From Thiomargarita sp. (GTDB lineage Bacteria > Pseudomonadota > Gammaproteobacteria > Beggiatoales > Beggiatoaceae), in NCBI GenBank assembly GCA_020718845.1, contig DYRG01000002.1:1-64000 (forward strand): a stretch of DNA of 64,000 nt, in the 5' to 3' direction. A model generated the notes under the pieces. It made no database searches and had not been told where the DNA came from. It worked only from the letters and a program-made list of their open reading frames with translations. Shown piece after piece: positions 8,168 through 14,885 of the stretch. Numbering within the stretch: the stretch's first letter is position 1; the number at the start of each line of letters is the position of its first letter. Both the position numbers and the translations under genes were made by a program.

Positions 8168-9502
8168 ATGTCTGGAAAAGTTTATATTAAAACCTTTGGT
8201 TGTCAGATGAATGAATACGATTCTGACAAAATGGCGTTAGCATTAGAATCTGCATACGGTTTGCAACGTACTGATTTACCAGAAGAAGCTGACGTTTTAT
8301 TACTCAACACTTGCTCAATTCGTGAAAAAGCCCAAGAAAAAGTTTTTTCTCAATTAGGTCAATGGAAAGACCTTAAAAAACAAAGACCTAACTTAGTTAT
8401 CGGCGTGGGCGGATGCGTCGCCAGCCAAGAAGGAGCGGCAATTAGAAGCCGTGCTCCTTTTGTGGATTTGATTTTTGGTCCGCAAACCTTACATCGTCTT
8501 CCTCAAATGCTCAAAGAAACCAGAGAAAAACATCAAACAATTGTTGACGTTTCTTTCCCTGAAATTGAGAAGTTCGATCATTTGCCACAACCTAAAGCAG
8601 AGGGCGTAACAGCTTTTGTTTCAATTATGGAAGGTTGTAATAAATTTTGTACTTATTGCGTTGTTCCTTATACGCGAGGTGCAGAAATCAGTCGTCCGTT
8701 TGATGATGTATTGCACGAAGTGGCACAGTTGCTCGATCAAGGCGTGAGAGAAATCAATTTATTAGGTCAAAACGTGAATGCGTATCGTGGTTTAATGCAC
8801 GATGGAGAATATGCAGATTTGGCGTTGTTAATTGAGTATTTGTCAGAAATGGATCAATTGGGAAGAATTCGTTATACCACTTCTCATCCTTCAGAAATGA
8901 CAGATTCTCTTTTTGAAACCTATCGAAAAATACCTAAATTGGTAAGCCATTTACATTTGCCCATTCAAAGCGGTTCAGATCGGGTTTTAGCGGCAATGAA
9001 ACGCGGTTATACGGCATTAGAATACAAACAAAAAATCCGTAAATTGCGTGAAGCACGACCTGATTTGAGTTTGTCGACCGATATTATTGTCGGCTTTCCT
9101 TCTGAAACAGAGCAAGAATTTCAAAAAACCTTAGAATTGATTGAAGAAATTGGATTTGATCATTCATTTAGTTTTATGTACAGTGCACGACCAGGTACAC
9201 CCGCCGCAGAAATGCCTGATTCTATTGATTTAGAAACCAAAAAACGGCGTTTATCAGAAGTGCAGATTTTATTGAATCAACAAGCCCAACACATCTCTGA
9301 GAAAATGGTAGGAATGGTTCAAACAATTTTAGTTGAAAAACCTTCCAAAAAAGACCCTCAACAATTAGCGGGGCGAACTGAAAATAACCGTGTGGTAAAT
9401 TTTAGTGGAACGCCAGATTTAATTGGTCAATTCATTGAAGTACAAATTACTGAAGCCTTGCCTAATTCTTTGCGAGCAATTATGGTGGAGAACAACCTCT
9501 GA
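8168..9502 (+). CDS. miaB: tRNA-2-methylthio-N6-isopentenyladenosine methylthiotransferase MiaB
   Basis: Radical-SAM enzyme that adds the 2-methylthio group to i6A37 of tRNAs. 444 residues. The N-terminal domain carries the three Cys of the auxiliary Fe-S cluster ([30 protein letters not shown]), the radical SAM domain has [15 protein letters not shown], and a TRAM domain closes the protein ([23 protein letters not shown]). Its TGA overlaps the CTG start inferred for phoH, giving a tightly coupled miaB-phoH-ybeY-corC operon, a common gammaproteobacterial order. Confidence 0.98.
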
Positions 9503-10479
9503 ATATCGAAACAACAGCGCGAGATATTGTTTTAAACCCTATTGACAATCAACGACTTGCAAATCTTTGTGGTCAATTTAATGAACATTTAAAGCACATA
9601 GAACAACGCTTTGGTGTTGAAATCAATCAACGTGGACATCATTTTAAGGTAACTGGTGTATCTGAACGTGTTTTTGAGGTGATTGAATTGCTCAAAGGAC
9701 TTTACGAAACAACTTCTCAAGAAACTATCAATCGGGAGCTTATTCATTTGTTTTCACAACCGTCCCATCTTGCTCAATTAGTGACCGCCGATAAAAATCA
9801 AGAAACCGATGAAATTGGTGTAAAAACTAAACGCGGTTTTATTAAAGGACGGGGATTTAATCAAACCCGTTATATTCAAAACATTTTAAGCCACGATATT
9901 AATTTTGGAATTGGTCCCGCTGGAACGGGTAAAACTTACTTAGCGGTGGCGTGTGCAGTTGAAGCATTGGAAAAAGAAAGTGTGCGGCGAGTAGTTTTAG
10001 TGCGTCCCGCAGTGGAAGCAGGTGAGAAACTGGGATTTCTCCCGGGTGATTTGGCGCAGAAAGTTGATCCTTATTTGCGACCTTTATATGACGCGCTATT
10101 TGAAATGCTTGGTTTTGATCGAGTGACTAAATTATTAGAACGCAATATCATTGAAGTTGCTCCTTTGGCTTATATGAGGGGAAGAACTTTAAATGAATCG
10201 TTTATTATTTTAGATGAAGCGCAAAACACCACCATTGATCAAATGAAAATGTTTCTAACTCGGATAGGATTTGGTTCAACGGCAGTGATTACGGGTGACG
10301 TAACGCAAGTTGATTTACCACGCGAAAGAAAGTCGGGTTTAAGACACGTTATTGATGTATTGCATGAAGTGGAAGGAATTAGCTTTTCATTTTTAACGTC
10401 GAAAGATGTGGTTCGACATCCGTTAGTTGCTCGAATTATTGACGCATACGAACGGGCAGAAAAGAAACTTGATTTATGA
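9499..10479 (+). CDS. phoH: PhoH-family ATPase (YbeZ), apparent CTG start
   Basis: PhoH-like P-loop ATPase thought to act in RNA metabolism with YbeY. Walker [16 protein letters not shown], Walker [12 protein letters not shown], and the family segments [23 protein letters not shown] and [13 protein letters not shown] are all present. The first conventional in-frame start is GTG 9679, but family homology continues upstream: codons from 9499 encode (L/M)[13 protein letters not shown] and then [28 protein letters not shown], matching the N-terminus of YbeZ proteins. The only plausible initiator there is CTG 9499, with GGAG 8 bases upstream and a 4-base CTGA overlap with miaB. The resulting 326 residues are normal for the family. 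Confidence 0.9.
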
Positions 10480-10937
10480 ATATTGAACTAGATTTCCAAT
10501 TGGGAGCAAATTTTCCTCATTTACCCAGTGAAAAACTCTTTTATGAATGGGTAGAAAAAACTTTAGAATTTGCTCAATTTAAAGTCGATGAACCGCCACA
10601 ATTAACGATTCGCATTGTTGATGAAACAGAAGGATTAGAATTAAACCAAACATGGCGGCATAAAAACTCTGCAACAAATGTATTGTCTTTTCCATTTGAA
10701 GCACCGCCTGAAGTTGATATTCCGTTGTTAGGTGATATTGTGATTTGTGCGCCAGTCGTTTTTAAAGAAGCCTTAGAACAATACAAATCTATTCCAGATC
10801 ATTTTGCGCATTTGACCATTCATGGAGTTTTGCATTTGTTAGGTTTTGATCATATTGAAGAAGATCAAGCAGAAGAAATGGAAGCCTTAGAAGTTGAAAT
10901 TTTAAATGCCTTAGACATTGCAAATCCTTATTTGTGA
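10476..10937 (+). CDS. ybeY: Endoribonuclease YbeY
   Basis: Zinc-dependent RNase involved in 16S rRNA 3' maturation and 70S quality control. 153 residues. The metal-binding signature HGVLHLLGFDHIEEDQAEEME (three His) is intact near residues 114-134, preceded by LNQTWRHKNSATNVLSFPFE and LLGDIVICAPVV. It overlaps phoH by 4 bases and corC follows at once; PhoH/YbeY adjacency is a classic conserved pair. Confidence 0.97.
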   Translation: MNIELDFQLGANFPHLPSEKLFYEWVEKTLEFAQFKVDEPPQLTIRIVDETEGLELNQTWRHKNSATNVLSFPFEAPPEVDIPLLGDIVICAPVVFKEALEQYKSIPDHFAHLTIHGVLHLLGFDHIEEDQAEEMEALEVEILNALDIANPYL

Positions 10938-10944
10938 ATCCGAT

Positions 10945-11772
10945 ATGAAAACCACCACCATGTTGTTTCTACAAGATAAGTTAAACCTGTTTTTAGACTT
11001 ACCTAAAGATCGAGAACATTTGTTATCTATTTTGCACAATGCCCGTCGAAAGAATTTGATTGCATTAGATGCCATGAAAATGATGGAAGGCGCATTGCAA
11101 GTTTCTCAAACTCACGCGCACGAAATTATGATTCCGCGTGCGCAAATGATTGTTATTTCACAAGATGATCGTCCCGAAGATTTTCTGCCAACGGTCATTA
11201 GTTCGCAACATTCGCGGTTTCCAGTGATTGGAGAGAGTCGAGATGATGTGTTAGGAATTTTGTTAGCAAAAGATTTGTTGAGTTATTTGGCGGAAGAAAA
11301 AGATAGTCGGCATTTTAATATGCGGGATTTATTACGACCCGCGTTTTTTATTCCAGAGAGCAAACGCTTAGATGTTTTGTTAAGAGAATTTAGAACAAAT
11401 CGTAACCATATGGCGATAATTGTCGATGAATATGCGGGGGTTGCTGGATTAGTCACTATTGAGGATGTAATTGAGGAAATTGTTGGTAATATTGAGGATG
11501 AATATGATTTAGAAGAAGCGGTGTATATTAAACCTCGAGAAGAAGGTTTTTATACGGTGAGAGCATTAACGCCTGTTGAAATCTTTAATCAATATTTCAA
11601 AGTGAGTTTCAGCGATGAGGAATTTGATACAATTGGAGGGATTTTAACGCAAACCTTTGGGTATTTACCAAAACGTGGAGAAACGTTAGAATTACATGGA
11701 TTAAGTTTTGAAGTGGTACGCGCCGATAAAAAGCGTTTGCATTTATTGAGAGTGCGCCCAGTTCTTTCTTAA
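10945..11772 (+). CDS. corC: CorC/HlyC-type CBS-domain protein (YbeX)
   Basis: YbeX/CorC proteins carry paired CBS domains and a CorC_HlyC C-terminal domain, and are linked to Mg/Co efflux and ribosome maturation. The frame is open from TTG 10918, but ATG 10945 is the better start, 7 bases after ybeY, giving 275 residues. Seen: ALQVSQTHAHEIMIPRAQM, the CBS pair with LGILLAKDLLSYL and DEYAGVAGLVTIEDVIEEIVGNIEDEYD, then the FAD-binding-like tail FDTIGGILTQTFGYLPKRGE. In many relatives lnt follows; here the operon ends. Confidence 0.93.
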   Translation: MKTTTMLFLQDKLNLFLDLPKDREHLLSILHNARRKNLIALDAMKMMEGALQVSQTHAHEIMIPRAQMIVISQDDRPEDFLPTVISSQHSRFPVIGESRDDVLGILLAKDLLSYLAEEKDSRHFNMRDLLRPAFFIPESKRLDVLLREFRTNRNHMAIIVDEYAGVAGLVTIEDVIEEIVGNIEDEYDLEEAVYIKPREEGFYTVRALTPVEIFNQYFKVSFSDEEFDTIGGILTQTFGYLPKRGETLELHGLSFEVVRADKKRLHLLRVRPVLS

Positions 11773-11833: not shown

Positions 11834-12196
11834 ATGCGCGAAGATATGATTGGTACGATTTTACAAAAGCTGAACGGCAGTTCCGCTGAAATTGAAGCGG
11901 CAGCGGTGATTTCAATCGATGGATTGGTGATCGCGTCGTTATTGCCAAAAAGCATGGACGAAGACCGTTTGGGCGCGATGGCGGCGGCGATGTTGTCATT
12001 GGGCGAGCGCACCGCTGAAGAATTGGCGCGTGGCGACCTCGAACAGGTGCTGATTAAAGGATCGAAAGGCTACGTTTTCATGACCCACGCGGGCAAAGAC
12101 ACCGTGTTGAGCGTGATTACTACCTCAGAAGCAAAATTGGGTTTGATTTTTTTAGACGTTAAACGTAGCGCAGAAGCAATTGCTAAAGCATTGTAA
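11834..12196 (+). CDS. Roadblock/LC7-domain protein (MglB-like)
   Basis: 120 residues forming one Roadblock/LC7 domain: ILQKLNGSSAEIEAAAVISIDGLVIASLLP, then LGAMAAAMLSLGERTAEELARGDLEQVLIKGSKGYVFM, and the final strand and helix KLGLIFLDVKRSAEAIAKAL. Such proteins act as dimeric scaffolds or GAPs for Ras-like GTPases (MglB for MglA). The GTPase gene lies three genes downstream in the same tight run. An AGGGG site precedes ATG 11834. The first two thirds look markedly more GC-rich than neighbouring genes. Role inferred from context. Confidence 0.9.
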   Translation: MREDMIGTILQKLNGSSAEIEAAAVISIDGLVIASLLPKSMDEDRLGAMAAAMLSLGERTAEELARGDLEQVLIKGSKGYVFMTHAGKDTVLSVITTSEAKLGLIFLDVKRSAEAIAKAL

Positions 12197-12224
12197 TTAC
12201 TAACTATTTTTAGGAGTCATTATT

Positions 12225-12599
12225 ATGGCGGGCAATGCGTTTTTTCTCATTCGTATTAACGATCATGTGCAATATTTGAAGAAAATTAATCGTACCCTCG
12301 AAGGGCAAGATTCATTTCAAAGTTGCACTCACACCGAATGCAAATTAGGTAAATGGATGTATGGCGAAGGTGAAGCAGAAGTGGTTGCATTAGAAAATCC
12401 TCGTGCAAAGGAAATCTTTGAAGAACTTAAAGAACCACATGAGCATTTTCATCAAGCAAGTGCCGATGTGTTGGCAAAACAACTCGCGGGCGATAAAGAC
12501 GGCGCGCACCAATCCATGACTGAAATGCACAAATTATCATCGGTTGTGTACCAAAAACTATTAGACCTCGATAAACTCAGCAGTAAAAAACCTTCCTAA
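12225..12599 (+). CDS. Stand-alone CZB (chemoreceptor zinc-binding) domain protein
   Basis: 124 residues matching a CZB domain with no other module. The expected 3His/1Cys zinc ligands are present: His14 (INDHVQYLKK), Cys39 in EC-KLGKW, and His72/His76 in the EPHEHFH helix. CZB domains bind zinc very tightly and sense zinc or hypochlorous acid, normally fused to chemoreceptors or diguanylate cyclases; here the domain is free. AGGAG precedes the ATG by 9 bases. It lies between the Roadblock gene and the receiver-like gene, so it may be the sensory input of that cluster (inference). Confidence 0.9.
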   Translation: MAGNAFFLIRINDHVQYLKKINRTLEGQDSFQSCTHTECKLGKWMYGEGEAEVVALENPRAKEIFEELKEPHEHFHQASADVLAKQLAGDKDGAHQSMTEMHKLSSVVYQKLLDLDKLSSKKPS

Positions 12600-12652
12600 T
12601 CATGGTTTCCTCCAGAATAGAATTATTTTGGAGGAAAATGGAGTTAATTTTT

Positions 12653-13849
12653 ATGCGTAAGCGTCTTATTAAAATGTGTGAAGTTGGATTAGATGATTCG
12701 TTTGAACGTATGTTAGAACTGGTATTTGAACATAGTGCGCAAGACTTTATTTTGGTCAGAGAAAATAAAGCCGAGGCTTGTATTGTGGATTTTGATAATT
12801 TGCAGGCAAAAAAAAATTGGGAAAATTATCGTAAAGATCATCCTCATCTTCCTATCATTATTTTGTCTTTAAATGAAAATGTCCCTGAAAAAGATTTTTT
12901 TGTTAAAAAACCAGTTAATTTAAATGAGTTTGTAAAAGTTTTAAATCGCTTAAAACGTGTAATTGACGATACTAGACAAAGCCAACAACTTATGATGGAC
13001 GAAACCAACGATACTGATTCGCGTCCCTACTCTCGTCCTCCTCAAAAAGAAGAAATGGTATTAAGAGTCCGTTCTTCTCAAAAAACAGTTAATGATCTTC
13101 TTATAAAATCATTTGAAAAACAACAAGTTACAACCTTATCTAATTACGCTGAACATACGGCGTGTGGATTTGAACCAGACATTAATCCAAATGATGAAAA
13201 AGCCATTGAAAAAGTAACTTATGATCGTTCTCGACGCTTGCAAGGTTTAATTGAAAAAGCCTTAGAAACTGCTAAAACAAGTGGGTGTGTTAATCGTTTG
13301 AAAAGTACAATGGGCGAATTATTAATTGATCCCGCCAATCAACGAGTTTTAAGCAGCGTTAAAGAACAAACTTTGCATAGTTTAATGCTATTACCCACAA
13401 AGAATCTTTATATAGAAACGCAATTACTTTCTCCCAATCAAGCAAAAGAATATATTAAGAATTCCTCAACGCCTTTTTCTCATGATTGCTTAGATGAGTT
13501 TCTCTGGAAAACTGCGATTTTAACTTCGCATGGACGAGTGCCAATGGGAACGGATTTGCATTCTCCCGTGATTCTTTCAAGATGGGCTAATTTTAGTCGT
13601 TTGATGATTACACCACACGCCTTACAAATCACCGCATTATGGGCTGATTCGGCTTATTCTTTAATTGAAACAGCCGCTTTATTACAAATACCTCAACGCT
13701 ATGTTTTTTCTTTATATAGTGCAATGGTTGCTTTGAATTTAGCTTGCGTGACTCCTGGTATTTCTCCGCGTAAGAAAACAATTTTTTTTTCCAATCATTC
13801 TGATAAACGCGGTTTATTTCAACGCTTATTAGCAAAAATTTCTTTCTAG
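12653..13849 (+). CDS. Unknown protein with receiver-like N-terminal domain
   Basis: Not a recognised family. The frame is open from ATG 12602; ATG 12653 is preferred because GGAG lies 9 bases upstream and the first strand (KRLIKMCEVGL) starts there. ATG 12638 is also possible. The first 115 residues resemble a divergent response-regulator receiver: ACIVDFDN (Asp), PIIILSLNE (Ser), FFVKKPVNLNEFVKVLNRL (Lys-Pro), though the acidic pocket is incomplete. A polar linker and a helical C-terminal domain follow (SLIETAALLQIPQRYVFSLYSAMVALNLA, winged-helix-like). It lies 6 bases before the GTPase gene and is probably part of that signalling unit. Confidence 0.75.
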   Translation: MRKRLIKMCEVGLDDSFERMLELVFEHSAQDFILVRENKAEACIVDFDNLQAKKNWENYRKDHPHLPIIILSLNENVPEKDFFVKKPVNLNEFVKVLNRLKRVIDDTRQSQQLMMDETNDTDSRPYSRPPQKEEMVLRVRSSQKTVNDLLIKSFEKQQVTTLSNYAEHTACGFEPDINPNDEKAIEKVTYDRSRRLQGLIEKALETAKTSGCVNRLKSTMGELLIDPANQRVLSSVKEQTLHSLMLLPTKNLYIETQLLSPNQAKEYIKNSSTPFSHDCLDEFLWKTAILTSHGRVPMGTDLHSPVILSRWANFSRLMITPHALQITALWADSAYSLIETAALLQIPQRYVFSLYSAMVALNLACVTPGISPRKKTIFFSNHSDKRGLFQRLLAKISF

Positions 13850-13855
13850 GTCTTT

Positions 13856-14395
13856 ATGAGCGATTACAAAATTATTTTTACGGGTCCAACGGGGGCTGGT
13901 AAATCAACCGCTATTGCTGCATTAAGCGACGTTCCTCCCATTAAAACCGAAGCAAAATCAAAAGAAGCCGCTGGTTATGTGGGTAAAACGGGTATTACTG
14001 TCGCATTAGATTATGGGATTTTAAAATTATCTGATCGAGATAAAGTTCATTTGTTTGGCACGCCCGGTCAGGAACGTTTTGATTTTATGTGGGATATTTT
14101 AACGGAAGGGGGTTTGGGTTTAGTTTTGCTCATTAATAATACTCGTCCTAACCCATTGGAAGATATGGAGTTTTTTTTAAATGCCTTTGCAGATTTTATT
14201 GGTAAAACAAAATTAGCGGTGGGAATTACGCGGATGGATTTGCAATCAACGCCAACATTAGAGGATTTTCATCAGAAACTTAGAGAACATGGTTTAAATC
14301 CGCCTTTATTTGAAATCGATGCACGAACCAAAAACGACGTTGCGTTGTTATTACAAGCGTTGTTGTATTCGCTTGATCCTTGTTTAAAGAATTGA
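13856..14395 (+). CDS. Ras/Arf-like small GTPase (MglA-type, COG2229-like)
   Basis: 179-residue small GTPase: P-loop GPTGAGKST (residues 10-18), switch II GTPGQERFDFMW (68-79, DxxGQ replaced by TPGQ as in several prokaryotic GTPases) and a specificity motif TRMD (125-128) in place of NKxD. The final helix has a regular SALK-type replacement (EIDARTKNDVALLL). It is the last gene of the Roadblock-CZB-receiver cluster and is followed by a strong terminator. By analogy with MglA/MglB the Roadblock protein is the candidate regulator. No membrane anchor is visible. Confidence 0.93.
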   Translation: MSDYKIIFTGPTGAGKSTAIAALSDVPPIKTEAKSKEAAGYVGKTGITVALDYGILKLSDRDKVHLFGTPGQERFDFMWDILTEGGLGLVLLINNTRPNPLEDMEFFLNAFADFIGKTKLAVGITRMDLQSTPTLEDFHQKLREHGLNPPLFEIDARTKNDVALLLQALLYSLDPCLKN

Positions 14396-14412
14396 TTAAA
14401 GGAAGTCGACAG

Positions 14413-14448
14413 AAAAAGGCGTTGCCCTCATGGAACAACGCCTTTTTT
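14413..14448. terminator. Strong intrinsic terminator, bidirectional
   Basis: Stem AAAAAGGCGTTG (14413-14424) pairs with CAACGCCTTTTTT (14436-14448) around an 11-base loop, giving a GC core flanked by A and T runs so that it works on both strands. It lies between the GTPase gene (+) and the convergent lipoprotein gene (-). Confidence 0.92.
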
Positions 14449-14465
14449 AAGCACTAATAATTAGA

Positions 14466-14885
14466 TTATTGTGCTGGGGTAGCAGCTGGAGCAGCGGCTG
14501 GAGCAGCAGCAGGTTTAGCTTTTTTAGCTTTCTTAACTTTTTTGCTGTATTTTTTGCCTTTTTTAGCTGGTTTAGCTTTACCTTTAGCTTTACCTTTAGC
14601 TTTTTTGGCTTTACCTTTAGCTTTTTTAGCTTTTTTAGCTTTTTTAGCTTTTTTCGTAGGAGCAACTTCTTCTACGATTTTAGCTCTAGGAGCAGGAATA
14701 GCTTCAGACTTCATCGCTGGAGCTACTGGAGCTACTGGTGTTGCCTTTTCCACTTTAGCAGGTGCGCTAGTAGTAGCATCAGCTTTAGCTGCATCTTCTT
14801 TAGTGCCCTTAGAACAAGCACCAACTAATAATAATGCAGCGATACTAGCAGCTGCGCCGAGTAATTTAAGAGATTTGCTCAACAT
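14466..14885 (-). CDS. Small lipoprotein with Lys/Ala-rich histone-H1-like repeats
   Basis: 139 residues. Signal peptide MLSKSLKLLGAAASIAALLL with lipobox LVGAC (Cys24), so predicted to be lipid-anchored in the envelope. The mature part begins with an Ala/Thr/Pro/Glu linker, then residues 78-124 are a run of KKA and KGKA units (more than half Lys), ending in an Ala/Pro tail. This resembles histone H1 or AlgP tails, but on an exported lipoprotein. A role in binding polyanions (LPS, peptidoglycan teichuronic-type polymers, DNA) would be inference. The + strand frames over this region are shadows caused by the repeats. Ends 17 bases from the terminator. Confidence 0.85.
   Translation of the reverse strand: MLSKSLKLLGAAASIAALLLVGACSKGTKEDAAKADATTSAPAKVEKATPVAPVAPAMKSEAIPAPRAKIVEEVAPTKKAKKAKKAKKAKGKAKKAKGKAKGKAKPAKKGKKYSKKVKKAKKAKPAAAPAAAPAATPAQ
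14520..14655. repeat. Short tandem repeats encoding Lys/Ala run
   Basis: Imperfect tandem 9- and 12-base units built on TTTAGCTTT repeat across this stretch (for example four AGCTTTTTT units at about 14618-14654). They encode the KKA/KGKA units of the lipoprotein on the - strand and would be prone to slipped-strand length changes in multiples of three. Confidence 0.75.

Follow-up and report, generated by a model that had tools for sequence, protein, structure and literature searches.

What does a free-standing CZB zinc-binding domain do in an operon with a Roadblock protein and a small Ras-like GTPase? The question is raised by four genes in the window, by which we mean the whole 64-kb stretch of DNA analysed here; it is part of an assembly of 2.98 Mb (99.97% complete, 123 contigs). 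Our preferred reading, to which we give a probability of about one half, is that these genes encode a derived, sensor-coupled switch of the Group 3 MglA type. CZB would report zinc or redox state to Roadblock and, through it, to the GTPase, with surface motility as the likely output. The features are:

11834..12196, + strand: ROBL, a 120-aa Roadblock/LC7 protein of the MglB type, corresponding to MglB-2 in Group 3 loci; Pfam PF03259, 1.7e-18
12225..12599, + strand: stand-alone CZB zinc-binding domain, 124 aa; Pfam PF13682, 3.4e-15
12653..13849 (probable start; ORF open from 12602), + strand: P3, with a receiver, a variable linker, an alpha/beta part and a putative winged-helix-like C-terminus; without a Pfam family
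13856..14395, + strand: Ras-like small GTPase, 179 aa, from the Group 3 branch of MglA; Pfam ATP_bind_1, 3e-13, and tree placement
14412..14448, + strand: intrinsic terminator with a 13-pair outer stem and a T-rich 3' arm; -19.3 kcal/mol, z = -3.3

The preliminary description had reported four tightly packed genes closed by a strong terminator, and the ORF coordinates, Pfam matches and hairpin bear this out. By ORF coordinates the successive intergenic gaps are 28, 2 and 6 nt. The ATG at 12653, rather than position 12602, is the probable start of P3: its counterparts in the family begin close by, and there is a GGAG 9 nt before it. The gap between CZB and P3 would therefore be about 53 nt. The consensus terminator scan missed the hairpin because its loop is longer than the 8-nt limit of that scan. 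The promoter consensus scan gave only four matches, all on the - strand and fewer than in shuffles.

Judged by eye from translations, the upstream neighbours are MiaB-PhoH-YbeY-CorC-like, and downstream lie a lipoprotein-like ORF, an ABC transporter and a UvrD-type helicase. The miaB-phoH-ybeY-corC genes (8168-11772) adjoin the module in the window; in the relatives L075, L076, L078 and L084 the module also lies beside miaB or phoH-ybeY-corC, with orientation differing among relatives. The convergent ORF at 14466-14885 on the - strand, which has the lipoprotein-like signal LLVGACSKG and, after it, a long KKAKK tail rich in Lys and Ala, resembles a secreted histone-H1-like protein. Elsewhere the same genome holds another module of the form P3-like - GTPase - Roadblock, which is more divergent and has no CZB (G000 contig C17:3904-5871, L088). 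Many family members carry a divergent variant in which a P3-like gene lies between two GTPases (L089-L096).

Does the operon belong to a known system? The preliminary description could not name one. The core can be named, as it corresponds to the Group 3 MglA loci of Wuichet & Søgaard-Andersen (2014). That paper (PMC4316618) places Group 3 almost exclusively in beta- and gamma-proteobacteria and gives as its features a G4 motif lacking the customary Lys, a DAR motif in G5 and one or two coupled MglBs. It also describes a conserved neighbour with a receiver-like N-terminus, a variable linker and a winged-helix-like C-terminus. The window operon shares these locus features, with one Roadblock as its coupled MglB and, as the adjoining protein, P3, whose C-terminus is putatively winged-helix-like. 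Beyond its match to ATP_bind_1, the GTPase has weak Ras matches. The TPGQ and TRMD motifs noted earlier are present (residues 69-72 and 125-128). The first is part of GTPGQ (G68-Q72), which is invariant in 19 sequences and present in 21/21 members of the family clade; the second is the G4 motif, deviating from [NT]KxD in having no Lys; and G5 is DAR (155-157).

In a tree of 112 GTPases, those of the family form one clade (99/97) inside a clade that also holds Neisseria and Snodgrassella, with moderate support for the containing forks (83/82; inner fork 88/79). The family GTPase profile matches the Group 3 GTPases of Neisseria and Snodgrassella over their full length, at 53% identity. Neisseria, Snodgrassella, Methylococcaceae and Leucothrix were among the matches listed in a scan of named genomes (80 loci listed, so that the numbers for lineages outside the family are minima), and these loci hold P3 and Roadblock homologues. 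Given the nesting of the GTPase clade with Neisseria and Snodgrassella, and the shared locus homologues, we conclude that the system descends from the Group 3 type, which includes the Snodgrassella mgl locus (Meng et al. 2024).

The family has nevertheless diverged from its Group 3 relatives in gene content. Canonical loci run P0 - P3 - GTPase - MglB-1 - Roadblock, and genes for PAS and a phosphonate-binding-like (PhnD-like) protein often come next. Although MglB-1 has no Pfam match, MglB is among the Roadblock structures that its model (pLDDT 94) matches. The window operon, by comparison, begins with Roadblock, includes CZB, and is without the MglB-1, P0 and PAS-PhnD genes. MglB-1 was not found in any of the 42 genomes of the family survey, which we take as Beggiatoaceae, and no PAS relative was found in the window genome at E 1e-25.

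The GTPase itself is also altered. The six positions that best discriminate 21 family GTPases from 44 MglB-1-linked GTPases (12, 37, 39, 40, 43 and 47) all lie in the P-loop or switch I. Residue 12, the position of Ras Gly12, is Val in 44/44 MglB-1-linked GTPases, whereas no family member has Val there. Residue 47, just before the G2 Thr, is Ile in the window and Ile, Leu or Val in 21/21 family members. It is Thr in 91/91 other GTPases, a set that includes conservon and Thermus/Deinococcus proteins. According to PMC4316618, the Arg finger of Group 1 lies at this site, where Groups 2-5 have a conserved Thr. Because that Thr is missing, we regard the window system as a derived variant of Group 3 rather than a plain member.

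Two other systems invite comparison. The Streptomyces conservons (Group 2 MglA, CvnABCD) likewise combine in one operon a Roadblock, a small accessory protein and a GTPase with GTPGQ and DAR. Unlike them, the window has no adjacent CvnA histidine kinase and no demonstrable DUF742 protein, and has a receiver protein and CZB instead; the P3 profile aligned with one DUF742 protein at a probability of 1.1% over 24 columns (hhalign), which is not significant. The MglA-MglB pairs of Myxococcus and Thermus (Group 1) share the GTPase and a Roadblock GAP, and Myxococcus adds a response-regulator partner, RomR. In contrast to Group 1, the window GTPase lacks the Arg finger in G2 (Ile47), has GTPGQ instead of TVPGQ, and has different partners. 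Thus the core has been known by neighbourhood since 2014, whereas the coupling to CZB, the loss of MglB-1 and the P-loop and switch I changes are absent from the literature that we found. Among open-licence papers, we found none on CZB with Roadblock or with MglB, and none on Beggiatoa gliding with Roadblock.

ROBL matches Roadblock/MglB structures in the PDB and is 51-68% identical to ROBL of canonical Group 3 loci such as those of Neisseria, Snodgrassella and Methylococcaceae. Its Asp29 and Gly30 are both invariant in 19 sequences. The GC3 of its gene is 0.55, compared with 0.22-0.36 in the neighbouring genes. Horizontal transfer was considered as an explanation and rejected, because GC3 is not consistently raised in relatives.

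With ROBL scored as present at E below 1e-48, 29/42 family genomes carry it. In 25 of these 29, a CZB gene lies 3' of ROBL on the same strand, at a spacing of 11-78 nt (median 43). This pairing upholds the earlier claim that an MglA/MglB-type switch is coupled here to a free CZB. The order ROBL-CZB-P3-GTPase is kept across the family, and in many cases another CZB comes after the GTPase. Neighbourhood conservation beyond this genome had been named beforehand as a check, and gene order proved to be kept across about 20 genera. That unrelated genes were grouped by chance, an idea with nothing to recommend it except the unusual composition of the Roadblock gene, is therefore refuted; that composition, moreover, does not recur consistently in relatives.

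The coupling of CZB to ROBL is real and conserved in the family, and adjacency is not universal. Three of the four exceptions (G003, G027 and G039) have P3 directly 3' of ROBL, and G003 and G027 carry a CZB after the GTPase. In the fourth (G012), PAS and PhnD-like genes adjoin ROBL. Two genomes (G004, G010) have the ROBL-CZB pair located apart from the P3-GTPase pair. In two drafts (G007, G016) ROBL-CZB is present and a GTPase of the family clade was not detected.

Might CZB merely be co-transcribed, with its target not the GTPase module but chemoreceptor arrays, a diguanylate cyclase or some step in zinc handling? Most characterised CZB domains, as described in PMC8262984, do sit in chemoreceptors or diguanylate cyclases, and several family members have a second CZB that stands alone. 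Counter to this, the window CZB is the sole CZB in its genome and lies in this operon. Furthermore, the ROBL-linked CZBs form one clade (95/90), apart from the copies found after the GTPase, and stay with ROBL when the operon is split. We consider simple co-transcription unlikely. Less likely by far is that the downstream CZB copy and P3 form the sensing pair, the Roadblock-CZB adjacency being inherited and functionless. In L075 and L076, CZB is indeed found only after the GTPase. However, the window and several relatives retain the ROBL-linked copy only, and ROBL-CZB adjacency persists across most family genera and across operon breaks.

The predicted zinc ligands of CZB, H14, C39, H72 and H76 (3His-1Cys), are invariant in 18 relatives. 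In this it resembles the CZB-only proteins, which stand alone, have the 3His-1Cys site and make up 27% of CZB sequences in Perkins et al. 2021 (PMC8262984); its own partner is a Roadblock/GTPase operon. The preliminary description had proposed gating by zinc or HOCl. HOCl now appears as one option only: according to a 2026 preprint (PMC13370339), zinc and O2 as well as HOCl elicit responses from CZB receptors. The preprint favours CZB as a reader of redox state by way of available zinc, which it proposes as a redox messenger (see also PMC8262984).

CZB is not confined to the family. A Thiodictyon MAG (L140) has the order P0 - MglB-1 - Roadblock - CZB - P3 - GTPase - CZB, and a Stewartia symbiont (L114) has P3 - GTPase - CZB. 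The GTPases of both fall outside the family clade and have Thr at residue 47. The CZBs of these two loci form a group outside those of the family (93/94), with the pair from Thiodictyon as sisters; we interpret this to indicate that CZB was recruited, transferred or duplicated more than once. Given that Thr47 is kept in both, the catalytic-site change may track the loss of MglB-1 rather than the gain of CZB, a weak indication from two cases.

In other lineages, a different cytosolic sensor is often encoded 3' of Roadblock. It is PAS at no fewer than 13 loci and protoglobin at 3 or more; protoglobins were named by similarity to an annotated one and by eye, and both PAS and protoglobin are read as sensors by neighbourhood. 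Protoglobin follows Roadblock in L107, L108 and L113 (Methylobacter, Chromatiales). Given these neighbours, CZB appears to occupy a slot in which cytosolic sensors are exchanged. A Thermus plasmid locus (L202) has the order DUF4388 - GTPase - Roadblock - protoglobin, which suggests that haem-based sensors take the position of CZB in both Group 3-type and DUF4388-type GTPase loci. At three further loci (L148, L166, L171) the gene after Roadblock resembles, by eye, a 2Fe-2S ferredoxin with a FSCRKGTCHGCLC-type motif.

The remaining protein, P3, is homologous to P3 of the Neisseria, Snodgrassella and Methylococcaceae loci. In its AlphaFold2 model (pLDDT 83), residues 20-138 match receiver domains with Z up to 12.6 in a fold search, and the linker at about 142-182 is of low confidence (pLDDT under 50). 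The receiver is divergent by sequence, as previously described, and of the usual acidic pair mainly residue 31 is left (Asp in 21 and Glu in 7 of 34). The label 'pseudo-receiver' is not established, because the phospho-acceptor D63 and K103-P104 are invariant in 34/34 relatives; judged by these residues, the receiver may be phosphorylated. The C-terminus had been described as helical. Helices are present in the model, but an alpha/beta part precedes them and a short strand stands at the end. This region is putatively winged-helix-like, with whole-model fold-search matches confined essentially to the receiver. A comparison of the P3 C-terminus with the N-terminus of MglB-1 gave no relation.

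These features allow P3 to be seen as a response regulator whose C-terminus binds DNA. The module would then be a transcriptional switch in which GTPase/Roadblock and CZB tune P3, and motility would not be the direct output. The receiver fold with its invariant D63 and K103-P104 is consistent with this, and a winged HTH was predicted, and a transcriptional role proposed, for Group 3 by Wuichet & Søgaard-Andersen (PMC4316618). Arguing against it, the C-terminus has no detectable relation to any DNA-binding Pfam family, and winged-helix-like parts may be protein-binding modules. We regard a transcriptional switch as the strongest of the alternatives, about half as probable as the favoured reading.

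In the sensor-coupled switch that we favour, the GTPase would alternate between GTP and GDP forms, with Roadblock as its partner and probably its GAP. The co-transcribed CZB would bind zinc by its three His and single Cys ligands and serve as a soluble zinc or redox sensor acting on Roadblock, in the place held by PAS or protoglobin genes in related loci. In its zinc-bound or its zinc-free form, it would change the action of Roadblock on the GTPase. P3 could provide a second input through its receiver or relay the state of the GTPase onward as output. The family has lost MglB-1, and the P-loop and switch I of its GTPase have changed, presumably as a re-tuning. Gene content and its conservation, the zinc ligands, the receiver fold and the PilT-family genes are likewise observed; we infer CZB-Roadblock contact, GAP activity, the signal and the output. 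We hold three refinements more tentatively, at somewhat short of even odds: that free CZB gates Roadblock directly, that the sensor slot is exchangeable among CZB, PAS and protoglobin, and that the P-loop and switch I changes offset the loss of MglB-1.

The likely output would be surface motility, by type IV pili or gliding, steered along redox gradients. In Snodgrassella, which has a Group 3 mglA, mutation of an orphan mglB altered soft-agar spreading, an effect read as pilus-dependent (PMC11112851). The window genome has three PilT-family ATPases above the cut-off. PilT-family genes are common and do not lie near the operon, so the link to motility rests on family analogy, by which an output in motility or polarity is plausible.

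If the favoured reading is correct, pairing with Roadblock would connect CZB to a small GTPase, an output new for this domain, and would supply Group 3 with a definable input; known CZB action, in the excerpted literature, runs through chemoreceptors and diguanylate cyclases. The changes in the P-loop and switch I lend themselves to comparative study of the way in which bacterial GAPs act. Large filamentous sulfur bacteria live by moving between oxygen and sulfide. For these organisms, the operon may provide a link between redox chemistry and gliding that can be tested.
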